From positions 1-64,000 of the forward strand of contig JADZCU010000045.1 of assembly GCA_020851415.1 (NCBI GenBank): DNA of 64,000 bases. Reading direction: 5' to 3'. Positions 8,193-60,637 of the stretch are shown one piece after another. The notes beneath the pieces were generated by a model. That model had not been told where the DNA came from, did not search any database, and was given only the letters and a program-made list of their open reading frames with translations. The translations under genes and the position numbers were made by a program. Origin of the DNA: Candidatus Peregrinibacteria bacterium (GTDB lineage: Bacteria > Patescibacteriota > Gracilibacteria > UBA1369). Within the stretch, counting starts at the first letter, position 1; the number at the start of each line of letters is the position of its first letter.

Positions 8193-9851
8193 ATGGCAAA
8201 ACAGATTTTTTATGGGGACGAGGCTCGTCAAAAGATTATCGCAGGTGTGAATCAGTTGGCGAAGGCTGTTGCTGTGACCATCGGTCCGAAGGGTCGCAAT
8301 GTGATTTTTGATCGCAAATACGGCGCTCCGATGATTACCAACGATGGTGTAACTATTGCCAAGGAGATTGACCTCAAAGATCCCTTTGAGAACATGGGTG
8401 CTCAACTGGTAAAAGAGGTTGCTACCAAAACGAACGATGTGGCCGGTGACGGTACAACAACCGCTACTATTTTGGCTGCACATATTATTGCTGAAGGTTT
8501 ACGCAATGTTACTGCAGGGGCAAATCCGGTTCAGTTGAAACGTGGTATCGACAAAGCCGTTGCACAAATTTGTGATGAGCTTGAGAAGATGAAAGTTGAT
8601 ATTGGTGATTCAAAAGAAAAGATTGCCCAGGTTGCGACTATTTCTGCTCAGGATCCAGATGTTGGTCAGTTTATTGCCGATATTTTAGAGGAGGTTGGAC
8701 ACGATGGTGTGATCACGGTTGAAGAGTCTCAGGCAATGGGACTTGGCAAAGAGGTAGTGAAAGGTATGCAGTTTGATAACGGTTATATTTCCGCTTACAT
8801 GGTGACGGATCCGGCTCGTATGGAGGCTATGTATGAGGATGTGAAGATCCTTATCACTGATAAGAAAATCAGCTCAGTTCAGGAGCTTCTTCCGATTATT
8901 GAGAAACTTGCTCAGGCAGGTAAAAAAGAGCTCGTAATTATTGCCGAGGATGTGGATGGTGAAGCACTCGCTACATTTGTTTTGAATAAGCTCCGTGGTA
9001 TTTTCAGCGTTTTGGCTGTGAAAGCACCTGCGTATGGAGACCGTCGCAAAGAGATGTTAAAAGACATCGCAGCGTTGACGGGTGGCACATTTATCACCGA
9101 AGAACTTGGTTTGAAACTTGAAACAACCGAACTTTCTGACCTGGGGGAAGCCCGCAAGGTTATTGCCGACAAAGACAAATGTATTATCGTTGAAGGCAAA
9201 GGTCACAAAGCAAATGTTGATGCTCGTATTTCTGAAATTAAGGTGTTGATGGAAAAATCTACATCAGATTTCGATAAGGAAAAATTGATTGAACGTATGG
9301 CAAAATTGGCTGGTGGCGTGGGAGTTATCAAAGTCGGTGCTGCTACGGAAACTGAATTGAAGGAAAAGAAACTTCGTATTGAAGATGCGGTTTCTGCGAC
9401 CAAAGCTGCTGTGGAAGAAGGCATCGTTCCGGGTGGTGGTGTTGCGCTTGTTCACGCTTCAAAAGTGCTTTTGAAATTTGAAGGCGACAGTGATGAGACT
9501 ACCGGTGCTCACATTTTGATGCGTTCACTCATCTGGCCACTTTATTACATCGCTCAGAATGCCGGCAAACAGGCTCCGGTTATTGTGAATGCTGTTATGG
9601 AATCTAAAGGCAATCATGGTTACGATGCTGCCAAAGACGAGTTTGTTGATATGGTAAAAGCCGGAATCATTGATCCGAAAAAGGTTACCCGTTCTGCTTT
9701 GCAAAATGCTGCTTCGATTGCAGGAATCTTCCTGACTACGGAAGCTGCTATTAGCGATATTCCTGAAGAGAAACCATCTGCCGGCGGTATGCCAGGCGGC
9801 ATGGGAGGAATGGGCGGTATGGGGATGGGTGGTATGGGCGGAATGATGTAA
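8193..9851 (+). CDS. groL: Chaperonin GroEL
   Basis: This 552-residue protein is a complete GroEL. It has the ATP-binding [11 protein letters not shown] near residue 86, the apical-domain segments ([27 protein letters not shown]), the signature [12 protein letters not shown] near 405, and the flexible Gly/Met C-terminal tail. It forms the double-ring folding chamber capped by GroES. It is the second gene of the CIRCE-controlled operon. A nested-hairpin element starts one base after its stop codon and may form the mRNA 3' end. A low-complexity frame antisense to the gene is a shadow. Confidence 0.98.
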
Positions 9852-9852
9852 T

Positions 9853-9975
9853 AAAACCCTCGAAAATTTGCTGTAGCTTCGTCGCTGCGAAAAAAAATCC
9901 CCTCAACGTACCAGTTAGTACGTATCGGGGATTTTTTTTCTGGCTTCTCGCTACAGCGAAATTTTGGAGGGTTTT
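9853..9975 (+). repeat. Nested-hairpin element, copy 1 (after groL)
   Basis: This 123-bp element has three nested stems. The outer stem pairs AAAACCCTCGAAAATTT with AAATTTTGGAGGGTTTT and continues into GCTGTAG/CTACAGC. The middle stem is AAAAAAAATCCCC/GGGGATTTTTTTT. The inner stem is ACGTAC/GTACGT around CAGTTA. Internal loops are CTTCGT opposite CTCG, and TCA opposite ATC. It begins one base after the groL stop codon. It shares this architecture with the copies at 13753, 31654, 38614 and 60516. It might act as a terminator, 3' mRNA stabiliser or mobile repeat. Confidence 0.85.
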
Positions 9976-10076
9976 GAAATAAGCTTTTCTAGTCTCCTCG
10001 TATAAACAGAATTTTGAAAAGATTTGAAGAGACTTTATTGCCACAGCGAAATTTTGGAGAGTTTTGAAATTAAGCT
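9976..10076 (+). repeat. Decayed tandem 3' halves of the nested-hairpin element
   Basis: After copy 1 come two more segments resembling only the 3' half of the element. One at about 9993-10029 (CTCCTCGTATAAACAG and onward) is closest to the 3' half of copy 2. One at about 10040-10076 repeats the 3' arm of copy 1, including CAGCGAAATTTTGGAG and TTTTGAAATTAAGCT. The matching 5' halves are absent, so these look like remnants of duplication and deletion. Confidence 0.65.
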
Positions 10077-10123
10077 AATGAGAATTATATAAACGATTTT
10101 ATTCTCAAAAAAACTGGCTTGTG

Positions 10124-10129
10124 ATATAC
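10124..10129 (+). promoter_or_regulatory. Probable extended -10 promoter box
   Basis: TGATATACT contains a TATACT -10 box preceded by an extended -10 TG, 38 bp before the start of the 211-aa gene. No good -35 box is visible. It would drive the 211-aa gene, pyrH, frr and rseP. Confidence 0.4.
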
Positions 10130-10166
10130 TGCGCGTAACCCTAGAAGGCCACTAAACTCATGATTT

Positions 10167-12128: not shown

Positions 12129-13754
12129 ATGGACCTGCTTATTACCGTTATTGCGTTCCTGGTTATTTTTTCTTTGCTTGTACTTATTCACGAGTGGGGA
12201 CATTTTTTTACCGCCCGAAAGGCCGGAATTAAGGTTGAAGAGTTTGGTTTTGGACTCCCGCCAAGAATTTGGGGCGTGAAAAAAGGGGAGACTTTGTATT
12301 CAATCAACTGGATTCCTTTTGGTGGATTTGTGCGATTGTTGGGGGAAGATAGCCGTGATCCCAAATTGGCGAAAGATAAACGAAGCTTTATCGCCAAGCC
12401 GCCGCGAGTACGTATTATGGTTATTGTGGCGGGGGTTGTGATGAACTTTTTGTTGGCGTACGTTTTGCTTACCGTAGGTTTTATCATTGGTATTAAGCCG
12501 TTAATTTTGAGCGGAGATGATGTTATCGCCAGACTGAATGACGGTACAATCGAGACCAGTCCGGGCTTTGTTGTTAAAGATGTGACACAAGATGGTCCTG
12601 CGGCCAAAGCTGGGATGCTGGTAAATGATAAGGTGGTGGCTGTTGATCAGAAACCTGTGGTTTCAAATGAGGAATTGACCAATTTGTTGAAATCTCAAAA
12701 TGATACGGGACACACGGTGAGTGTAGAACGTGGTACGGATCGTCTGGATTTGACGGTTGCTGCTGACCAAAAACAGGGACTTGGATTTTCGACTTTTGAA
12801 ATTATGTTTTTACCCCGGGTAGAGATTTTAAATGTAAAAGAAAATTCTGCTTCGGCCATGGCGGGACTTTTACCTTCCGACATTATTTTGAAAATTAACG
12901 ATCAGCCGATTTATTATTTGGATGAGTATCTGAATGCCATTCGTTCTTCAGGGACTCTGAATTTTATGGTCCAGCGTGGGAATGAGATTCGTAATGTGCA
13001 GGTACGGATGATTCAGGCACCTTCTGTGATTATGAGTGGAGTTTTCCCTGGAACGCCGGCTGAAAAGGCTGGTGTGGCCAAAGGGGATCTTTTGATTTCA
13101 ATCGATGGTCAGACATTTAGTACACCGGATGAAGTTATTGCTTATACAAAGCAAAAAGCGAATAAAGTTCTTCATTATGTCTTTGATCGTCAGGGGCAGC
13201 TTGTGGAGTTTGATATTACCCCTAGTGAACAGGGTTTGATCGGTGTTGGACTCTCACCTGTGTTTTCATTTGAAAATCAGGAGTTGAGCGTTTATACAAC
13301 AGATTCTCCAGTATCGGTTTTGTTGATTCATGATGTGCAGTATACTTTCTGGGTTGCTCCGTTCAGGGCGTTTGAGGAGGCAGGCAGATTATCTGTTTTG
13401 ACGGCGCAGATGTTTGGAAATGTTATTCATCAGGTGGTAACACAATTTAGCGTTCCGGAAGGTGTTGCCGGACCTGTTGGTATTGCTCAACTGACCTATC
13501 AGTTTGTTCAGGAGGGGGCCATGTCATTGTTGCGCTTTGTGGCTTTGCTTTCGCTCAGTTTGGCAATTATCAATATTTTGCCTTTGCCGGCACTTGATGG
13601 CGGTAGACTCTTATTCATTGTCATTGAGGTGATAACCGGTAAGCGTGTGAGCGCAAAACTTGAGGGATTGATACATGCGGTTGGATTTCTTTTGTTGATT
13701 ACATTGATTTTCGCCGTTACCTATAATGATATTTTGCGATTGATACCAAGGTAA
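12129..13754 (+). CDS. rseP: RseP-type site-2 protease with three PDZ modules
   Basis: This 541-residue membrane metalloprotease has the zinc motif HEWGH at about 21-25 in its first helix and the second active-site element NILPLPALDGGRLLF near 481. Between them are three PDZ-like modules: about 135-205, 225-300 and 305-375 (each with an xAxxAGL/GM/GV element). E. coli RseP is about 450 residues with two PDZ domains, so this one is enlarged. Site-2 proteases cut membrane-embedded substrates such as anti-sigma factors or signal-peptide remnants. It ends the pyrH-frr-rseP run. A nested-hairpin element overlaps its stop codon. Confidence 0.93.
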   Translation: MDLLITVIAFLVIFSLLVLIHEWGHFFTARKAGIKVEEFGFGLPPRIWGVKKGETLYSINWIPFGGFVRLLGEDSRDPKLAKDKRSFIAKPPRVRIMVIVAGVVMNFLLAYVLLTVGFIIGIKPLILSGDDVIARLNDGTIETSPGFVVKDVTQDGPAAKAGMLVNDKVVAVDQKPVVSNEELTNLLKSQNDTGHTVSVERGTDRLDLTVAADQKQGLGFSTFEIMFLPRVEILNVKENSASAMAGLLPSDIILKINDQPIYYLDEYLNAIRSSGTLNFMVQRGNEIRNVQVRMIQAPSVIMSGVFPGTPAEKAGVAKGDLLISIDGQTFSTPDEVIAYTKQKANKVLHYVFDRQGQLVEFDITPSEQGLIGVGLSPVFSFENQELSVYTTDSPVSVLLIHDVQYTFWVAPFRAFEEAGRLSVLTAQMFGNVIHQVVTQFSVPEGVAGPVGIAQLTYQFVQEGAMSLLRFVALLSLSLAIINILPLPALDGGRLLFIVIEVITGKRVSAKLEGLIHAVGFLLLITLIFAVTYNDILRLIPR

Positions 13755-13875
13755 ACCTTCGAAAATTTGTTGTAGCTTCGTCGCTGCGAAAAAAAATCCC
13801 CTCAACGTACCAAGTTCGTACGTATCGGGGATTTTTTTTTCTGGCTCCTCGCTACAACAGAATTTTGGAAGGTTT
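13753..13875 (+). repeat. Nested-hairpin element, copy 2 (after rseP)
   Basis: This 123-bp copy starts inside the rseP TAA stop codon. Its middle stem and loops are nearly identical to copy 1. The outer stem has paired changes: CCCTC to CCTTC matched by GGAGGG to GGAAGG, and GCTGTAG to GTTGTAG matched by CTACAGC to CTACAAC. The inner stem ACGTAC/GTACGT encloses CAAGTTC. The compensatory changes show that the fold, not just the sequence, is kept. Confidence 0.85.
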
Positions 13876-14228
13876 TAAACATAATATGTGAAAGACGCAT
13901 TAAGCGCATCAGCCCTGCTTTCTGCTCTTTATAACCATGGTGAGAATGCATAAATTTTGGCTTTTATAAGCTAAAAAAGTTGAGTTTTGCACTTTTTAAC
14001 TTGCGGGGATTTCTTAACTGATTTGTAGTCCCCCTTGTTAAGTTTTTTTAAATATATTTTTATATTTTTTTTATACTAGAGCTAGTAGGTGGTGGTGGAA
14101 AAATCTCAATAGATGGTGAAAGGTTTTTGTAGGTTCATAAACTTGAGAAGGGGGTGGAAAGTCGATAGTATACGATGTGCTTTTGAGATAAAAAAATATT
14201 AAAAAAGCATTTTTTCAGTGTTTTTCGT
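13876..14228 (+). other. Region upstream of dnaA, possible replication origin
   Basis: These 353 bases hold an AT-rich tract at about 14040-14076, including a possible TATACT box near 14071. A G-rich segment with repeated GGTGG and GGTGGAAA elements follows at about 14090-14165. No canonical TTATCCACA DnaA box is visible on either strand. An origin is plausible from position beside dnaA and from the AT-rich tract, but it is not shown by the sequence. A dnaA promoter must lie here as well. Confidence 0.3.
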
Positions 14229-22835: not shown

Positions 22836-23183
22836 TTATGTGCTTTGCGTTGCCTTTAACCAGCCGCCCAGCATTCTACCTATCTCTGCGAGCTTGGCTT
22901 GCAGTTGAAATAACTTGGTTTCGTTCACAAGTTTTAATTCAAGTAACAAACGGAGTTTTAATGTGCTGATTTCGAGCTTTGCTATGGCTTTTAATAAATA
23001 TCCTGCCTTGAGCGGTTTAGGTGCAGATTTTGCCATTACCAGAATTTCCATGCAATCAAGAACAGAGTTTTCTAAACCTAATCCCAGGCTGTTGCGCCAA
23101 CGCTTCTCGAGTTTGTTGTTCAGGTCTATAATTGCTTTATAAGCTTCATAAGTTTTGTTGATTATGGGGAGTGTTGAGTCCAT
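22836..23183 (-). CDS. DGR accessory variability protein, bAvd family
   Basis: From the ATG at 23183 this encodes 115 residues with the bAvd four-helix-bundle pattern. It starts STLPIINKTYEAYK, continues with LGLENSVLDCMEILVMAK, and ends in the hallmark AEIGRMLGGWLKA. Avd proteins form a basic barrel-shaped pentamer that binds the reverse transcriptase and the template RNA. The gene is on the strand opposite to TR and RT. Its 5' end overlaps the RT start by 20 bp, and its 3' end lies 11 bp from the TR core. It is therefore antisense to the whole region just downstream of TR, where the spacer RNA is found in studied DGRs. A longer frame to 23237 has no family support. Confidence 0.88.
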   Translation of the reverse strand: MDSTLPIINKTYEAYKAIIDLNNKLEKRWRNSLGLGLENSVLDCMEILVMAKSAPKPLKAGYLLKAIAKLEISTLKLRLLLELKLVNETKLFQLQAKLAEIGRMLGGWLKATQST

Positions 23184-24181
23184 AGATTTGAGTTTAGAGA
23201 ATATTTGGAGGAGCTGGTTTGAGTTCAAGAAAGGCAAGCGTTTTACTTTTGAGCTGCATACTTTTCAGTATTACCTCGAAAAAAATCTTTACAAACTTTT
23301 TCTGGATTTGAATAACGGCTGTTATCGGCATGGGAGCTACAAAAAATTCATCGTTTGCGACAACAAACGACGTGAAATTTCGGTTGCTTCGGTGCGTGAC
23401 AGGGTGGTGCACCGATTGATGTATGATTATTTGGAAAAAATTTACGACAAAACTTTTATTTATGATGCCTGGTCTTGCCGAAAAGAGAAGGGATTGCTTG
23501 GTGCTATTGAACGAACGCAGGAATTTTTGAAACCATTGAGGAAATACCCCCCCCTATAACCTTAAAAATGGCTATGGCAAGCCGTTTGCCTGGGTTTGGA
23601 AGTGCGATGTGAAAAAGTTTTTTGATAGTGTCGATCAGGAGACTTTGTTGAAAAATTTTTCGTTGCGCATCAAAGATAGTACAACTTTGAATCTGTTAAA
23701 AGAAGTAGTCGGCAGTTTTACAACGGTTGCAGGAAGAAAAGTGGGTATACCAATTGGCAATCTCACGAGCCAGATTTTTGCGAATATTTATCTGAACGAG
23801 TTGGATCGATTTGTGAAACATACATTAAAAGTAAAGGCTTATTTGCGGTATGGTGATGATTTTATTTTATTGGAAAATGATTTGGGAAAACTGAAACTTT
23901 TTCGAGCTCAAACTGTCGATTTTTTGAGAAATGAACTCAAATTACAGGTGAATCCTAAAAGTGATAGAATCATCAAACCTGCGCATGGGCTTAAATTTTT
24001 AGGGATAAAATTTTGGCCTTCAGGAAGAAACTTAACAAAACGAAATCTTAGGCGAATTCAATCAAGGCTTAACACCAAAAATATCTCAAGTTATAGCGGA
24101 TTGATGAAAAAGCATGGAAATAGTAAACAGGTGAAGCGATTTAACTGGTTGGTTTATGAAAAGCTATTTACCGACGAGTAA
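23164..24181 (+). CDS. DGR reverse transcriptase, split by a one-base frameshift
   Basis: Two frames together encode a complete DGR-type reverse transcriptase of about 338 residues. The first (23164-23559) carries the N-terminal part (IWRSWFEFKKGKR, SVRDRVVHRLMYDYLE). The second (open from before 23609 to 24181) carries KCDVKKFFDSVDQ with the first catalytic Asp, the DGR-specific IGNLTSQ in place of QGxxxSP, and the YGDD box at about 23849. They join in a run of eight C's at 23547-23554. Removing one C gives the smooth reading RKYPPYNLKNGYG. The break is a sequencing error, a phase-variable tract, a translational frameshift or a recent mutation. VR is heavily diversified, so the system has worked. 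Confidence 0.9.
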
Positions 24182-29319: not shown

Positions 29320-31656
29320 ATGGCGGGTGCTCAAGACTCAAATTTGGAAGATGAGAATCAGGATGACCTGGACTCGAAAACCCAGGCGAATGACGTGCCT
29401 GCCACGGGTTCGGAAAAGAAAAAGAAAACACCTGAACAAATCGAACGTGAGCGTATGCGCAGACGTCGCCGTCGACAACGACAGCGGATTATGCGTAGTG
29501 TGCAAGCGATTCCCGATGCAGAAAAAAATCAAACCCAAAAACCGGGTGACGCTGAAAAAGTTGTTGATGAAAAAAAACTGAGAGAGGATCGTGAGCGGAA
29601 GCAGCAATTGCGTGAGGAGTCACATCCGAGGGTTTTGGATGCGAATGTTCCGCCGGATATGAAATTTGATAAGCCGGTGAATAATGATCAGGGCTTTGGG
29701 GAATTGGATGAGAAAAAAAAGAAGGATGAAGCGGAAAAATTGCAGAAAGAAAAAAATGAGCGTGATGAAAAAGAAAAGGCGCAATTGAAAAAGAAGGAAC
29801 CTCAAGATGCTGAAAAACAGGAACCTAAAAAGGAGATAAAATCTGAACGACAGGTTGTTGAAGAGGAATCACCGAAGATTGAAGAGCCGGATGAACCTGT
29901 TGCTGTTTATCATCCTGAACCTTCGTACACGACGAATAGTTTTGCTTTTGAAGAATCAAAAACAGAAAAACCATTGAGTGAGGGAATACAGGCTGAGCCA
30001 GATATTGATTTGGTTTCTGAGGAGAAAAATGCTGGTGAACCGGATTTGGAGTTGGTGTCTGAAGTGATGGATAAAGGATCCGTTGAGCCGGAGAGTCAAC
30101 CTCAAGAGATTGAGGAGCAGACTATTGAGGTTTCTGAAACAGAAAAAGAGCCGGCTGAGGGTGCTGTGAATCCAGAAGATGAAGCTCCTGTTTTGGAAGA
30201 GGAGTCGGAATTGGAATTAAATGAAGAACCTGCTCAACAAGTTTTGGCGGATGATAAAGACGATGAACTTGATCTTACTCCATTGGAAAATCCTGAAGAT
30301 GATACGTTGGTTCCTGCAGATTCTGTGGTGGATGAGGTCCCTATTTTCCCGACTACAGAGGAAAATGCTCCGGCAGAGGAGGCGCCTGAAGATGAGTTAA
30401 CTTTTGGTGACTCGAATGATGGAAATGAAGGACCGTTGATTCCGACCGGTAAAATGCGTGAGGATCATGGAGGGGCTTCTGCAGATTTACAGCAGGCCTA
30501 TGAAAGTAACCCGATTATACGAACTCCCGGTACGACCGAGAGTCCGAACGCTTTGAATGAGAATGTTGAGCCTGAATCGAAAGAGGCCACAGATGATATT
30601 TCAGAGAAACCCGAGAAAAAAGAGGAAGCAAATGTTGCTGAGGAGTTAAATGAAAAAAAGGCTCCGGCTGTGGATTTTGCTATGAAGTTGGCAAAATCGA
30701 TCAGTGAAGTTTTGAAAAAAATTATTCCAGCGGTGGGAGGTTTTTTTGGCGGGGCAGGAAAATTTTTGAAAGGTATTTTTGGTAAATTGAATATTCGTGT
30801 GGTTGGAGGACTGGTATCTGTGCTTGTTGTGGTTGGTTTGGGATATTTTGGATTTACACAAAAATGGCATGAACAGGCCTGGGGATTTGTGAGTGGAACT
30901 TTTGGGTCTTTCTTTAAACCGAAAGCTGAGGAACCAAAGGTGGAGATAAAACCCGACGTGAATGATCAGCGTGCTTTTGGGATAACGACTGGTTTGCTTT
31001 TTGCCGGAAATAAAGGGGCGGCCTCTGACCGATTGCCAGGAAATATCTGGATTGCTTTGTACTATGGTGCGTTACAGGAGCCCCGTGTTCAGGGGGAAAC
31101 GGGTGTTTCTGCGGCAACTTTTTTTGGTGAATTGAGAGATCAGGCCGATTTTGTGAATGTGTATGTTGAGTATGTGGATAACCTGGAACACATGCAGAGT
31201 TTGTATAAAACCGATGTGTATAAGCTTTTGGATCAGACTACCAGACGTGATGAGGCGCTTTTGAAGCATCTGGATGAGTTGAAAGCTATGAAGGAAGAAG
31301 GTATGAGGATTCAGACTCAACTTGGTATTAACCTGGATGATTTGAAGGTTTCTTATGAGAGTTTGAATGGTGAAAAAAATAAGGGTGAAACAGACTTTTT
31401 TGCGGCATTGGCTGATTTGCAGGGACAAAAAAGTGATACTTTGTTGAAACAGTTTATTGAGGTTTCACAAAAGCAGATTGCTTTGAAAGCCCGTATTGCC
31501 GCTTTGGGGAAACTTCAGTCGTACTATGTTACAGCCCTGGCTCGTTTGGATAAACGGCTTGAGGCGATTGATAAGAATCGTGATCCGTTGATTCAGGGGA
31601 TTCGGGTTGTGGATGTGCCGGGGTCCGACCTGGATTTGATTATCCGCGAGCAGTAG
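29320..31656 (+). CDS. Large acidic single-pass membrane protein, uncharacterised
   Basis: From the ATG at 29320 (a TTG at 29311 would add three residues) this encodes 778 residues. An Arg-rich patch near residue 45 (ERMRRRRRRQRQRIMR) is followed by about 400 residues of Glu/Asp/Pro-rich, probably disordered sequence. A helical segment and a transmembrane helix near 500-520 (VVGGLVSVLVVVGLGYFGF) come next. The last ~230 residues form a soluble helical domain with coiled-coil character. The long acidic part is probably cytoplasmic, with the basic patch possibly binding nucleic acid (inference). A nested-hairpin element begins exactly at its stop codon. Confidence 0.7.
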   Translation: MAGAQDSNLEDENQDDLDSKTQANDVPATGSEKKKKTPEQIERERMRRRRRRQRQRIMRSVQAIPDAEKNQTQKPGDAEKVVDEKKLREDRERKQQLREESHPRVLDANVPPDMKFDKPVNNDQGFGELDEKKKKDEAEKLQKEKNERDEKEKAQLKKKEPQDAEKQEPKKEIKSERQVVEEESPKIEEPDEPVAVYHPEPSYTTNSFAFEESKTEKPLSEGIQAEPDIDLVSEEKNAGEPDLELVSEVMDKGSVEPESQPQEIEEQTIEVSETEKEPAEGAVNPEDEAPVLEEESELELNEEPAQQVLADDKDDELDLTPLENPEDDTLVPADSVVDEVPIFPTTEENAPAEEAPEDELTFGDSNDGNEGPLIPTGKMREDHGGASADLQQAYESNPIIRTPGTTESPNALNENVEPESKEATDDISEKPEKKEEANVAEELNEKKAPAVDFAMKLAKSISEVLKKIIPAVGGFFGGAGKFLKGIFGKLNIRVVGGLVSVLVVVGLGYFGFTQKWHEQAWGFVSGTFGSFFKPKAEEPKVEIKPDVNDQRAFGITTGLLFAGNKGAASDRLPGNIWIALYYGALQEPRVQGETGVSAATFFGELRDQADFVNVYVEYVDNLEHMQSLYKTDVYKLLDQTTRRDEALLKHLDELKAMKEEGMRIQTQLGINLDDLKVSYESLNGEKNKGETDFFAALADLQGQKSDTLLKQFIEVSQKQIALKARIAALGKLQSYYVTALARLDKRLEAIDKNRDPLIQGIRVVDVPGSDLDLIIREQ

Positions 31657-31778
31657 TAGTGCTGAAAAAACGCCTCTTACTTCGTTAAAAACCTAAAAGC
31701 AGCTCACCGTATTTGCGAATACGGATCGCTTTGCTTTTAGGTTTTTGCCTCGTAATAGGCATTTTTTGAGCACTACTA
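31654..31778 (+). repeat. Nested-hairpin element, copy 3
   Basis: This 125-bp copy begins with the TAG stop codon of the preceding gene. The outer stem pairs TAGTAGTGCT with AGCACTACTA and continues through an A-run to CGCCTCTTA/TAATAGGC. The middle stem AAAAACCTAAAAGCA/TGCTTTTAGGTTTTT is perfect. The inner stem CCGTATT/AATACGG encloses TGCG. The loops match the family: CTTCGT opposite CCTCG, and TCA opposite ATC. Stem sequences are unrelated to copies 1 and 2. Confidence 0.85.
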
Positions 31779-37139: not shown

Positions 37140-38615
37140 ATGTTGAATACTTTAACTCTTACAGAAGCCAGCCAGGGTTTGCGTGACAAGAAATTTTCTT
37201 CGGTTGAACTTACCAAGGCTTGTCTTGATCAGATTAAAAAACATAATGAGGCTATGAATGCTTTTGTTTTGGTGACTGAGGATTTGGCTTTGAAACAGGC
37301 TGAAGCTGCTGATGCTGTTTTGGCAAAAGGCGGTGCGCATGTTCTTGCGGGTATTCCTATGGGTTTGAAAGATATTTTTAATACCAAGGGTGTCCGCACC
37401 ACTTGTTGTTCAAAGATTATTCGTGATTTTGTGCCGCCTTATAATGCGACTGTTGTTGATAAATTATCCGATGCCGGAATGGTTTTGCTTGGGAAACTGA
37501 ATATGGATGAGTTTGCCTGTGGTGGTTCTACCGAACATTCTTGTTTTGGAGTAACAAAGAACCCATGGGATTTGGAACGTGTAGCCGGTGGGTCGTCCGG
37601 TGGATCTGCAGCGGCTGTTGCTGCTGACATGGCTTACTATACTTTGGGTACCGATACGGGTGGATCTATTCGCCAGCCGGCTTCATTGAGCGGTTGCGTG
37701 GGACTGAAAGTTACGTATGGCCGTGTGTCTCGCAGTGGTGTTACCGCCATGGCGTCTTCATGGGATACCATTGGTCCGTTTGGAAAAACTGTTCAGGATA
37801 CGGCTACGGTTTTGCAGGCGATTGCTGGACATGATGGCCGTGATGCGACAACTCCGATGGTTGATGTTCCTGATTACAGCAAGAGTTTGGGACAGTCCGT
37901 GCAGGGTTTAAAGATTGGCGTGCCAAAAGAGTATTTTGGAGAGGGGACTGATCCGGAAGTTGAAAAGGCTGTTCGTGATGCTTTGAAAGAGTATGAAAAA
38001 ATGGGCGCAACTATTCATGAAGTGAGTTTGCCTTATACCAAATATGCGATTGCGGTTTATTACGTGGCAATGCCGGCGGAACTTTCTGCGAATCTGGCTC
38101 GTTTTGATGGTATTCGTTTTGGTTCTAAGCCAAGTACCGAAGCTGATTCACTTTTGGATTATTATTTGAAAGTTCGCAGTGAAGGTTTTGGGGATGAGAT
38201 TAAGCGTCGTATTATGATCGGAACGTATGTGTTATCTGCAGGTTATTACGATGCCTACTACCGAAAGGCTCAAAAGGTTCGAACGCTTATTATCCAGGAT
38301 TTTGAAAACGCTTTTAAGAATGTGGATGTGATGATTACTCCGGTATCACCGTTCCCAGCATTTAAGATTGGCGAAAAGAAAGATGATCCACTCGCGATGT
38401 ATTTGGCTGATGCACTCACTATTCCAGTGAGTTGCGCGGGCGTTCCCGCCATGAGTGTGCCTTGCGGGTTTAGTTCCGGTACTGCGACTGGCGGGAAGAA
38501 ACTGCCAATCGGTATGCAAATTATCGGTCCTCAGTTTAGTGAGGATTTACTGTTCAAAGTTGGTTCTGCGTATGAGCAGGTGACTGAGTGGCATAAGATG
38601 AAACCAACGTTGTAA
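37140..38615 (+). CDS. gatA: Asp/Glu-tRNA amidotransferase subunit A
   Basis: From the ATG at 37140 this encodes 491 residues, the normal GatA length. An upstream start at 37086 would add 18 residues unlike the family. It is an amidase-signature enzyme releasing ammonia from glutamine. The catalytic Lys lies in GIPMGLKDIF near 79. The Ser/cis-Ser pair lies in the Gly/Ser-rich GGSSGGSAAAVAADM and GTDTGGSIRQPAS segments near 155-185. It works with GatC and GatB. A nested-hairpin element overlaps its stop codon. Confidence 0.96.
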   Translation: MLNTLTLTEASQGLRDKKFSSVELTKACLDQIKKHNEAMNAFVLVTEDLALKQAEAADAVLAKGGAHVLAGIPMGLKDIFNTKGVRTTCCSKIIRDFVPPYNATVVDKLSDAGMVLLGKLNMDEFACGGSTEHSCFGVTKNPWDLERVAGGSSGGSAAAVAADMAYYTLGTDTGGSIRQPASLSGCVGLKVTYGRVSRSGVTAMASSWDTIGPFGKTVQDTATVLQAIAGHDGRDATTPMVDVPDYSKSLGQSVQGLKIGVPKEYFGEGTDPEVEKAVRDALKEYEKMGATIHEVSLPYTKYAIAVYYVAMPAELSANLARFDGIRFGSKPSTEADSLLDYYLKVRSEGFGDEIKRRIMIGTYVLSAGYYDAYYRKAQKVRTLIIQDFENAFKNVDVMITPVSPFPAFKIGEKKDDPLAMYLADALTIPVSCAGVPAMSVPCGFSSGTATGGKKLPIGMQIIGPQFSEDLLFKVGSAYEQVTEWHKMKPTL

Positions 38616-38735
38616 GCTTGATGAAAAAGCATCATCTACTTCGTCAAAGTCAGCAAAGCAGCTCAACGTACTTTGAGTACGTATCGCTTTACTTTGCTGA
38701 CTTTTCCTCGTATCTGATACTTTTTGATCAAGCTT
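38614..38735 (+). repeat. Nested-hairpin element, copy 4 (after gatA)
   Basis: This 122-bp copy starts in the gatA TAA stop codon. The outer stem pairs AAGCTTGATGAAAAAGCATC with GATACTTTTTGATCAAGCTT. The middle stem AAAGTCAGCAAAG/CTTTGCTGACTTT is perfect. The inner stem is ACGTAC/GTACGT, within AGC/GCT. The loops again are CTTCGT opposite CCTCG, and TCA opposite ATC. A G-G mismatch just before the A-run of the outer stem also occurs in copies 1-3. Confidence 0.85.
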
Positions 38736-59440: not shown

Positions 59441-60517
59441 ATGCAGCAATATTTACTCCCGGCACTTTTTGCTTTTGTTCTGACTTTTGGTCTGATTCGC
59501 GGGGCTTTGAAATTGTTCCCCAAGATTGGATTGATGGATCGTCCTCATAAGTATGGGCTTAAACGTGAGCCTATTCCTTATTATGGAGGCACGTTGATCG
59601 TGATTGCTTTTATGGTTTCGGTGTTTTTGTTTGTACCGATGCAGGATAAGGTTATGGGGTTACTGCTTGGGGCGATTTTGATTGCCGGTGTGAGTTTTAT
59701 GGATGATTTACAGGGATTGAGTCCGTGGCTTCGATTGGGGGTGCAGGTTTTATCTGCACTTATATTGGTAGGGGCGGGGATCGGCATTCATTCCATTACG
59801 AATCCGTTTGGAGCACCGATTATTTTTGATGGATGGATGGTGTCGGTGACAATTGATCAGGTGTATCAGATTTCTTTGATGGCGACCTTGTTTACGATTA
59901 TATGGGTGGTTGCGATTGTGAATACCATGAACTGGCTGGATGGATTAAATGGCTTACCGAGCGGTGTTACCACTATTGCGGCGCTTACGTTATTTTTCTT
60001 GAGTATTCGTCCGGGACTTCATTTTGACCCGGCTTCGCAGGTTCCGGTGGCAACGATGAGTATTATTTTGTGTGCGTGTGCGTTTGCATTTTGGTTACAC
60101 GATTTTTATCCGGCAAAGATTTTGATGGGGGATACCGGGAGTATGTTTTTTGGTTATCTGGTGGCGGCATTAGCTATTTTTTCAGGTGGAAAAGTAGCAA
60201 CGGCATTTTTGGTTTTGGGCTTCCCGATACTTGATGCCGGATGGGTGATTATCCGAAGACTTTTACAGAAAAAATCTCCGATGAAGGGCGACTTGAAACA
60301 TTTTCATCATAGACTATTAGAGAGCGGTTTTTCTCAGAGGAAAGCGCTTGTTTTGATTTATGCATTGTGTGCGGTTTTTGGCGGAACCGCGGTTTTATTG
60401 GAAGGTCAGCAGAAAGTGTATGCGGTTTTTGTGTTGTTGGTCTTAATGGTTGTTTTGGGTACTATGGCTGTGTATATGGGGGGAAAGAAGAAAGGTGATG
60501 TGAGTGCGAGGAGATAA
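59441..60517 (+). CDS. Undecaprenyl-phosphate sugar-1-phosphate transferase (WecA/TagO-like)
   Basis: This 358-residue protein has about 10-11 membrane helices. It carries the MraY/WecA-family motifs VSFMDDLQGL near 84, NTMNWLDGLNGL near 165, KILMGDTGSMFFG near 225 and the His motif HFHHRLLESG near 287, which marks WecA/TagO over MraY. It starts a lipid-linked glycan by adding a HexNAc-1-phosphate to undecaprenyl phosphate at the cytoplasmic face. The O-antigen-ligase-like gene follows, so both may build one surface polymer. A nested-hairpin element overlaps its stop codon. Confidence 0.9.
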   Translation: MQQYLLPALFAFVLTFGLIRGALKLFPKIGLMDRPHKYGLKREPIPYYGGTLIVIAFMVSVFLFVPMQDKVMGLLLGAILIAGVSFMDDLQGLSPWLRLGVQVLSALILVGAGIGIHSITNPFGAPIIFDGWMVSVTIDQVYQISLMATLFTIIWVVAIVNTMNWLDGLNGLPSGVTTIAALTLFFLSIRPGLHFDPASQVPVATMSIILCACAFAFWLHDFYPAKILMGDTGSMFFGYLVAALAIFSGGKVATAFLVLGFPILDAGWVIIRRLLQKKSPMKGDLKHFHHRLLESGFSQRKALVLIYALCAVFGGTAVLLEGQQKVYAVFVLLVLMVVLGTMAVYMGGKKKGDVSARR

Positions 60518-60637
60518 AAATTGATCTAATTGATTTGTACGTTGTCAGCTGCAGAAAATATCCTCGCCGTATTAATCTCATACTGTCTCGAATATTTTCT
60601 GCAGCTTCCTAGTAAAAATCTAATTATATCAATTTTT
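60516..60637 (+). repeat. Nested-hairpin element, copy 5 (divergent)
   Basis: This 122-bp copy starts inside the TAA stop codon of the transferase gene. The outer stem pairs AAAAATTGATCTAATT with AATTATATCAATTTTT. The middle stem AGCTGCAGAAAATAT/ATATTTTCTGCAGCT is perfect. The inner stem CGTAT/ATAC(T)G encloses TAATCTC. Loop motifs are weaker relatives of the others: CGTTGTC for CTTCGTC, CCTAG for CCTCG, and CTCG...CTCG for CTCA...ATCG. Confidence 0.75.

Follow-up and report, generated by a model that had tools for sequence, protein, structure and literature searches.

The window, the whole stretch of 64,000 nucleotides analysed, derives from a Candidatus Peregrinibacteria bacterium known from a draft assembly (81 contigs, genome of 1.42 Mb). 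An intact nested palindrome, named E1, is found directly behind groL and is followed by two partial copies, half-copies A and B. Other members of the same hairpin family lie farther downstream.

8193-9851, + strand: groL, encoding GroEL of 552 aa (ORF, protein search); its TAA is 1 nt before E1
9853-9975, + strand: E1, intact nested palindrome of 123 nt (covariance model R1, fold)
9985-10023, + strand: half-copy A, right arm of a second element (blastn, nhmmer, shuffle test)
10035-10076, + strand: half-copy B, outer right arm, E1-like, plus 10-11 nt of the E1 downstream flank
13752-13876, + strand: copy 2, 91% identical to E1, at the stop codon of ORF 12129-13754
31655-31777, + strand: family member, starting inside the stop codon of the upstream ORF
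38614-38735, + strand: family member, starting inside the stop codon of the upstream ORF
60516-60637, + strand: family member, starting inside the stop codon of the upstream ORF

ORF 12129-13754 is taken by us, by inspection only, to encode a site-2-type metalloprotease. E1 is composed of an outer 9-bp arm, a G.G mismatch, a first internal loop around TTCGTC / TTCTC, an A8/T8 middle stem, a TCA/ATC loop and an ACGTAC-GTACGT apex. In a search of the own genome, model R1 recognises E1 with E 2.4e-28, E1 being one of the 11 sequences used to build the model.

Half-copy A lacks the left arm and the apex; B lacks the left arm, the apex and the middle stem. The first-pass annotation had extended half-copies over all of 9976-10076. 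They are found at 9985-10023 and 10035-10076, and the 9 nt interposed between E1 and A (9976-9984) are flank. Locally aligned to the 18 elements of the own genome, A and B score 31.5 and 30.5, and none of 500 dinucleotide shuffles reached either value (shuffle maxima 16.5 and 19.0, respectively). A control stretch, 10091-10166, was no better than shuffles in the same alignment, 476 of 500 scoring as high. The best score of A is obtained with an element on contig C4 (C4:105079-105200), to the right arm of which residues 9985-10017 are 97% identical over 33 columns with one gap (blastn, E 2.0e-8 in the 1.42-Mb own genome). Copy 2, indicated earlier as the closest relative of this segment, ranks only fourth (22.5), and E1 is outside the best four. 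A profile of 109 right halves independently recovers A at 9985-10023 (nhmmer, E 0.0014 over all loci collected at that stage). B is closest to E1, as had been proposed: residues 10040-10076 are 92% identical to 9950-9985 (blastn, E 6.8e-8 in the own genome), and the match extends 10-11 nt past the palindrome into the flank (GAAATAAGCT / GAAATTAAGCT). This flank has no counterpart at copy 2, despite the identity of the latter to E1. The motif of about 35 bp reported to recur at 89-bp spacing corresponds to an ungapped repeat, 9945-9980 / 10035-10070, which is 89% identical and has a spacing of 90. Judged by these alignments, A and B are right-arm fragments of elements of the same kind as E1, and the original observation of two segments resembling only the 3' half of the element is confirmed.

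The region behind groL was compared in 12 of the 13 genomes of the source's family, G012 having no groL match (G, C and L numbers denote genomes, contigs and loci). Arm profiles were scanned over up to 400 nt behind the groL stop, and over 164 nt only in G005, where the contig ends. The source genome (G000) features a full element and two right halves, G002 a full element and no halves, G008 a degenerate element (model E 0.026; left-arm profile E 0.053) and one right half. The latter has a profile E of 3.5e-5 among 11 short sequences, and of 0.0037 in a larger set. No element arm was detected by the profiles behind groL in G001, G003, G004, G005 (over the 164 nt), G006, G007, G009, G010 and G011. 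The state of the groL site is thus shown to vary among the 12 genomes. Since half-copies vary in number, they are not fixed; fixation in all relatives, the outcome that had been named as refuting the first-pass reading, is thus not observed. The genomes searched include none of the genus of the source, and therefore no empty groL site of the source species was seen.

Structure and spread of the hairpin family

The apex pattern retrieved seven copies in the own genome, four in G019 and one in G008, and none in a reversed control. With a covariance model built from 11 elements, 18 distinct loci were found in the own genome (20 rows, two being opposite strands). The same model gave matches at E<=0.1 in 26 of 57 genomes, own included, two of which, G022 and G032, have weak matches only (best E 4.5e-4 and 0.005). 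At this threshold 12 of the 13 genomes of the source's family are element-positive, the exception being G004. Across the class, matches at E<=0.001 were found in 25 of 117 genomes, own included.

Length is 118-127 nt in 124 of the 126 elements collected. Stems are mostly unrelated in sequence, yet paired: standard pairs make up 80.9% versus 59.5% in shuffles, two-sided changes are found at 36 of 47 pairs, and the covariation score is 0.527 versus 0.175 in shuffles. Every slid register was worse, although the unslid one had some advantage here, since the structure was derived from a member of the set of 11. In the first internal loop, CGTY occupies the left strand in 106 of 126 elements, and CCTHG the opposite strand in 111 of 126. 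Conservation extends to a second internal loop (CTC / TCG) and to the apex (GTA/TAC). The outer ends are the most variable part of the element, though paired. Conserved parts are unpaired or apical; stems are free to vary, Watson-Crick pairing being kept.

In Rfam 15, no match above gathering score was found for the window, and in ten element loci only a tRNA exceeded this score, none at the element. MicroRNA-precursor models touch the opposite strand in L134 (E 3e-4) and L136 (E 0.1 and 0.3), far below gathering score. No title or abstract dealing with such a family was found in the literature on repeats of Patescibacteria, Gracilibacteria and Peregrinibacteria, of which a part was covered.

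RNA helices usually tolerate G.U pairs. In 109 elements, aligned by fitting to the structure, 154 G.T cells were counted versus 120 A.C cells; the figures are 66 versus 68 in the outer 24 pairs, and 76 versus 44 in the middle helix. A set of 15 paralogues from one genus (11 of the 12 G112 copies and four from G157) comprises 616 Watson-Crick cells, 3 G.T, 8 A.C and 18 others, and at least two Watson-Crick types occur at 19 of 26 variable pairs. Since G.T overall hardly exceeds A.C and RNA helices tolerate G.U, the pairing seems to be chiefly a property of the DNA, whether it is needed there or originates there. Imperfect arms can be made to match by template switching (quasipalindrome mutation), a known route as far as the literature covered indicates. 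Arms may be matched in this way, during movement, or by selection that keeps stems paired in place; the counts of changes are mixed. Four orthologous pairs have 0 two-sided and 11 one-sided stem changes; the ten closest G112/G157 pairs (one of them orthologous) have 19 and 42. Two-sided and one-sided changes are 2/5 and 9/4 in two G112/G157 orthologues, 2/3 between E1 and copy 2, and 2/6 summed over three G019 pairs.

Placement behind genes and variation of sites

Stop codons of same-strand frames of at least 100 codons were sought from -60 to +15 of the left end of the 126 elements. A stop is in range for 67 left ends, at -3..+4 in 44, at +7..+13 in 17 and elsewhere in six; random points taken in the same loci predict 1.1 stops at -3..+4. 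A convergent stop is in range of 34 right ends, only three at -3..+4. Some elements have no such gene-end neighbour within range. Structural RNA neighbours were checked in nine RNA-rich loci. The element left end overlaps by 1-2 nt the 3' end of tRNA-Ala in L186, L192, L193, L205 and L209, and by 2 nt that of tmRNA in L211; it abuts 5S rRNA in L188. The L206 element starts 11 nt behind 5S rRNA, and that of L218 is located in a spacer. The tRNA-Ala genes mentioned lie downstream of 16S rRNA, in five genera. Elements were found also within the 16S rRNA match, around nt 70-85 of it, at L193:1331-1450 (G001) and L192:1278-1396 (G006); the copies involved are the first elements of those loci, and represent insertions in 16S rRNA.

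G112 hosts 12 copies, 11 intact (121-124 nt) and one, L320, with a replaced middle. Homology among the intact copies covers the element and stops at, or at most ~14 nt from, its ends, and the flanks are unrelated. The flanks of nine G112 loci were sought in the congener G157, and three aligned across the site. The L309 and L310 sites are empty in G157. At L310 the G112 element sits exactly between the stop codon and a native TTGT, and no target-site duplication is evident at the empty site. At the L315 site, G157 has no more than ~20-26 nt that by eye look like a left arm. Other sequence lies at the L313 site, and L311, L312, L314, L317 and L319 gave in G157 no hits, partial hits or hits in two places; the lack of a usable site for six of the nine loci counts against the mobile-hairpin reading. 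The idea that the outer 9-bp arms always correspond to the target sequence was discarded, as the L309 arm agrees with the coding DNA of the empty relative and the L310 arm does not.

At one locus compared in four congeners, G043 has a full element and G050 is empty. G055 carries there the same right half (profile E 2.9e-4) and another left half (E 0.13), and is thus chimeric; in G059 only a left-arm-like stretch was seen by eye, the profile having missed it. The whole hairpin unit is absent at the L309 and L310 sites of G157, and halves remain elsewhere. From such site comparisons the hairpin family is judged to be mobile. The first-pass annotation had derived mobility from the groL site; mobility is upheld by the empty sites found elsewhere, and not by groL itself. 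Movement is not frequent, since in several cases different genera carry an element at orthologous sites (e.g. L177 with G003, G007, G009 and G011). The elements L227 (G043) and L249 (G055) occupy the same locus and have nearly the same outer 8 bp; the interior is of another subtype, as if the inside of the element had been replaced.

Origin of the half-copies

Right halves are found downstream of full elements also in L299 (E 0.0015), L211 (E 0.0024) and L222 (E 0.054), and weaker ones in L220 and L260 (E 0.46-0.49). In an array located behind 5S rRNA in G002, the later tandem copies lack the outer left arm and repeat right arm and flank, the same pattern as E1 plus B. The right arm can also go: it is lost in G007 and kept at the same locus in the congener G011.

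In our interpretation, given a probability of about 0.7, A and B are defunct right arms that miniature mobile DNA hairpins left behind through repeated insertion or duplication. A hairpin of fixed size (~122 nt) would be recognised through its fold and conserved unpaired loops, not through stem sequence, and would integrate immediately after genes, oriented as they are. The most likely vehicle is a hairpin intermediate, single-stranded or cruciform, served by an enzyme acting in trans, a scheme resembling that put forward for REPINs (PMC3116915). No fewer than two different elements, one A-type and one E1-type, would once have been present at groL: the parent of A differs from E1, so that a second element or recombination is needed. 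The right end of the E1-type element, together with its flank, would have been duplicated locally to yield B; the sharing of the local flank of E1 fits this step. Later, A and B may have lost their left arms and apices by the deletion to which long palindromes are liable, or by recombination with a newer copy, the gene-proximal copy staying intact and the distal ones decaying. In the simplest history, an old A-type element would have been followed by an E1-type element with a duplicated right end, older left arms being lost; this order is reconstructed. Repeated insertion at groL is challenged by the consideration that one local duplication, plus recombination with the C4 element, could yield both A and B. 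Repeated insertion, slippage or recombination, as suggested at the outset, are supported as a set, and no single process is singled out by the different parent of A and the E1 flank carried by B.

Local tandem duplication only, in which slippage copied the right end and flank of E1 and decay followed with no repeated insertion, is tenable but not favoured. It accounts well for B, which carries 10-11 nt of E1 flank that copy 2, 91% identical to E1, does not have. It finds parallels in the G002 tandem copies, which repeat right arm and flank and lack the outer left arm, and in the tandem REPIN arrays including flanks described in Pseudomonas in the available part of PMC3116915. A does not fit, since it is not a copy of E1, and scores 31.5 with the C4 element and 22.5 with copy 2, E1 being outside the best four.

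Within the mobile-hairpin reading, a bolder formulation is possible, which we regard as doubtful. Candidate-phyla bacteria might harbour a novel class of miniature mobile DNA: hairpins recognised by their fold, with freely changing stems templated from arm to arm, which insert in the sense of the gene and precisely at its 3' end, whatever the gene type (stop codons, tRNA CCA ends, tmRNA, 5S rRNA). If so, machinery sensing mature RNA or translation ends would be implied, and the half-copies at groL would be what successive cycles at one gene end have left.

That the family is a functional RNA structure or a terminator kept by selection, and the halves neutral debris of terminator turnover, appears improbable. 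In its favour, elements are located at 3' ends in gene orientation, E1 has A8/T8 tracts in its middle stem, the right half contains a T6 run in 11 of the 18 elements of the own genome and in 42 of the 126 collected, and G.T outnumbers A.C in the middle helix (76 versus 44). Set against this, G.T and A.C cells are 154/120 overall, 66/68 in the outer 24 pairs and 3/8 in the 15 paralogues, rRNA operons are occupied as well, with two copies within a 16S match and others in spacers, and presence is patchy, with empty sites. E1 is also absent from a simple terminator scan, the rules of which would miss a hairpin with a paired T tract.

Integron attC sites have variable stems, conserved unpaired bases and a position behind stop codons. 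Use of the elements as attC-like sites by a tyrosine recombinase is very improbable: palindromes that fold, vary in their stems, keep conserved bases unpaired and directly follow stop codons, the left/right chimera in G055 and sub-cut-off tyrosine-recombinase matches in 20 of 20 genomes (also in 14 of 14 controls) would suit it, but the outer ends vary the most instead of forming conserved boxes, several loci are housekeeping genes such as groL and not cassettes, and none of the element-bearing genomes tested gave an integron integrase, TIGR02249 exceeding the cut-off in one of 20 genomes, G004, which lacks element matches. An assembly artefact of a repeat-rich region, conceivable in a draft of 81 contigs as palindromes are hard to assemble, has an equally slim chance, given that solo right halves recur behind groL in G008 and after the elements of L211 and L299, and that A differs from all 18 own elements and is therefore not a collapsed duplicate.

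Known repeats and candidate enzymes

REPINs are REP doublets forming hairpins (Bertels and Rainey 2011, PMC3116915). In the available part of that article they are miniature non-coding hairpins that keep length and pairing, with a spacer varying through compensatory changes; singlets are read as dead remnants, and tandem clusters include flanks. In these traits the hairpin family resembles them. REPINs differ in having conserved REP ends, GI-type 16-mers with first residues 71 bp apart (same part of PMC3116915), whereas in the hairpin family variability is greatest at the ends, and it is internal loops that are conserved. A pair of inverted, conserved REP ends is missing: termini differ between copies and stay paired. 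Furthermore, no Y1 transposase match was found in the own genome, nor in the element-rich G002, G008 and G019. Although REPIN-like in the way it works, the hairpin family is not classed with REPINs, because two defining features, conserved termini and a RAYT, fail.

CGTC-tagged REPs measure 20-40 bp, with stems of 8-9 bp and the tag at the end, as reported in the available part of Di Nocera et al. 2013 (PMC3733652). Likenesses are the CGTY in the loop at the foot of the inner helix (106 of 126 elements) and, according to the same portion of PMC3733652, the absence of a dedicated transposase and a location mostly downstream of genes. The hairpin family differs in measuring ~122 nt and carrying the motif ~25-35 nt inside, and falls outside that class. 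ERIC elements are about 127 bp long. ERICs and other MITEs are similarly short palindromic intergenic elements, some at gene 3' ends, in the available part of PMC10969869; in the hairpin family, by contrast, no conserved terminal repeats and no target duplication were recognised, and stem sequence is not conserved.

The hairpin family may be viewed as patchy, class-wide mobile hairpins marking gene 3' ends with near-nucleotide precision and with no recognised transposase, the decaying half-copies plausibly documenting several arrivals at a single site. Streamlining is the usual description of small candidate-phyla genomes. With sites in empty, filled and chimeric states, the insertion chemistry and the basis of 3'-end targeting can be tested directly.

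Candidate partners were searched for among known enzymes. Y1/RAYT transposases (PF01797) were found in 18 of 57 genomes, 8 of the 26 element-positive and 10 of the 31 element-negative at E<=0.1, with no matches in the own genome, G002, G008 and G019. Reverse transcriptases (PF00078) were found in 7 of 26 and 10 of 31, respectively. Both were rejected as partners, as their occurrence does not follow the elements over the 57 genomes. Integron integrase (TIGR02249) was rejected as well: in the 20 genomes tested it is above cut-off only in G004, where a full-length match (G004:C21:2406-3344, 460 bits) was found, and G004 is the one genome of the family with no element match. Generic tyrosine-recombinase matches below cut-off are present throughout, in each of the 20 genomes tested as well as in each of the 14 controls. 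Apart from the hairpins, the window contains at 22836-24181 a bAvd-like ORF (Pfam E 7e-8, below the curated cut-off) beside a reverse transcriptase. The frame of the latter seems split (23155-23559 and 23609-24181), RVT_1 matching the second part only, and the region looks like a diversity-generating retroelement.
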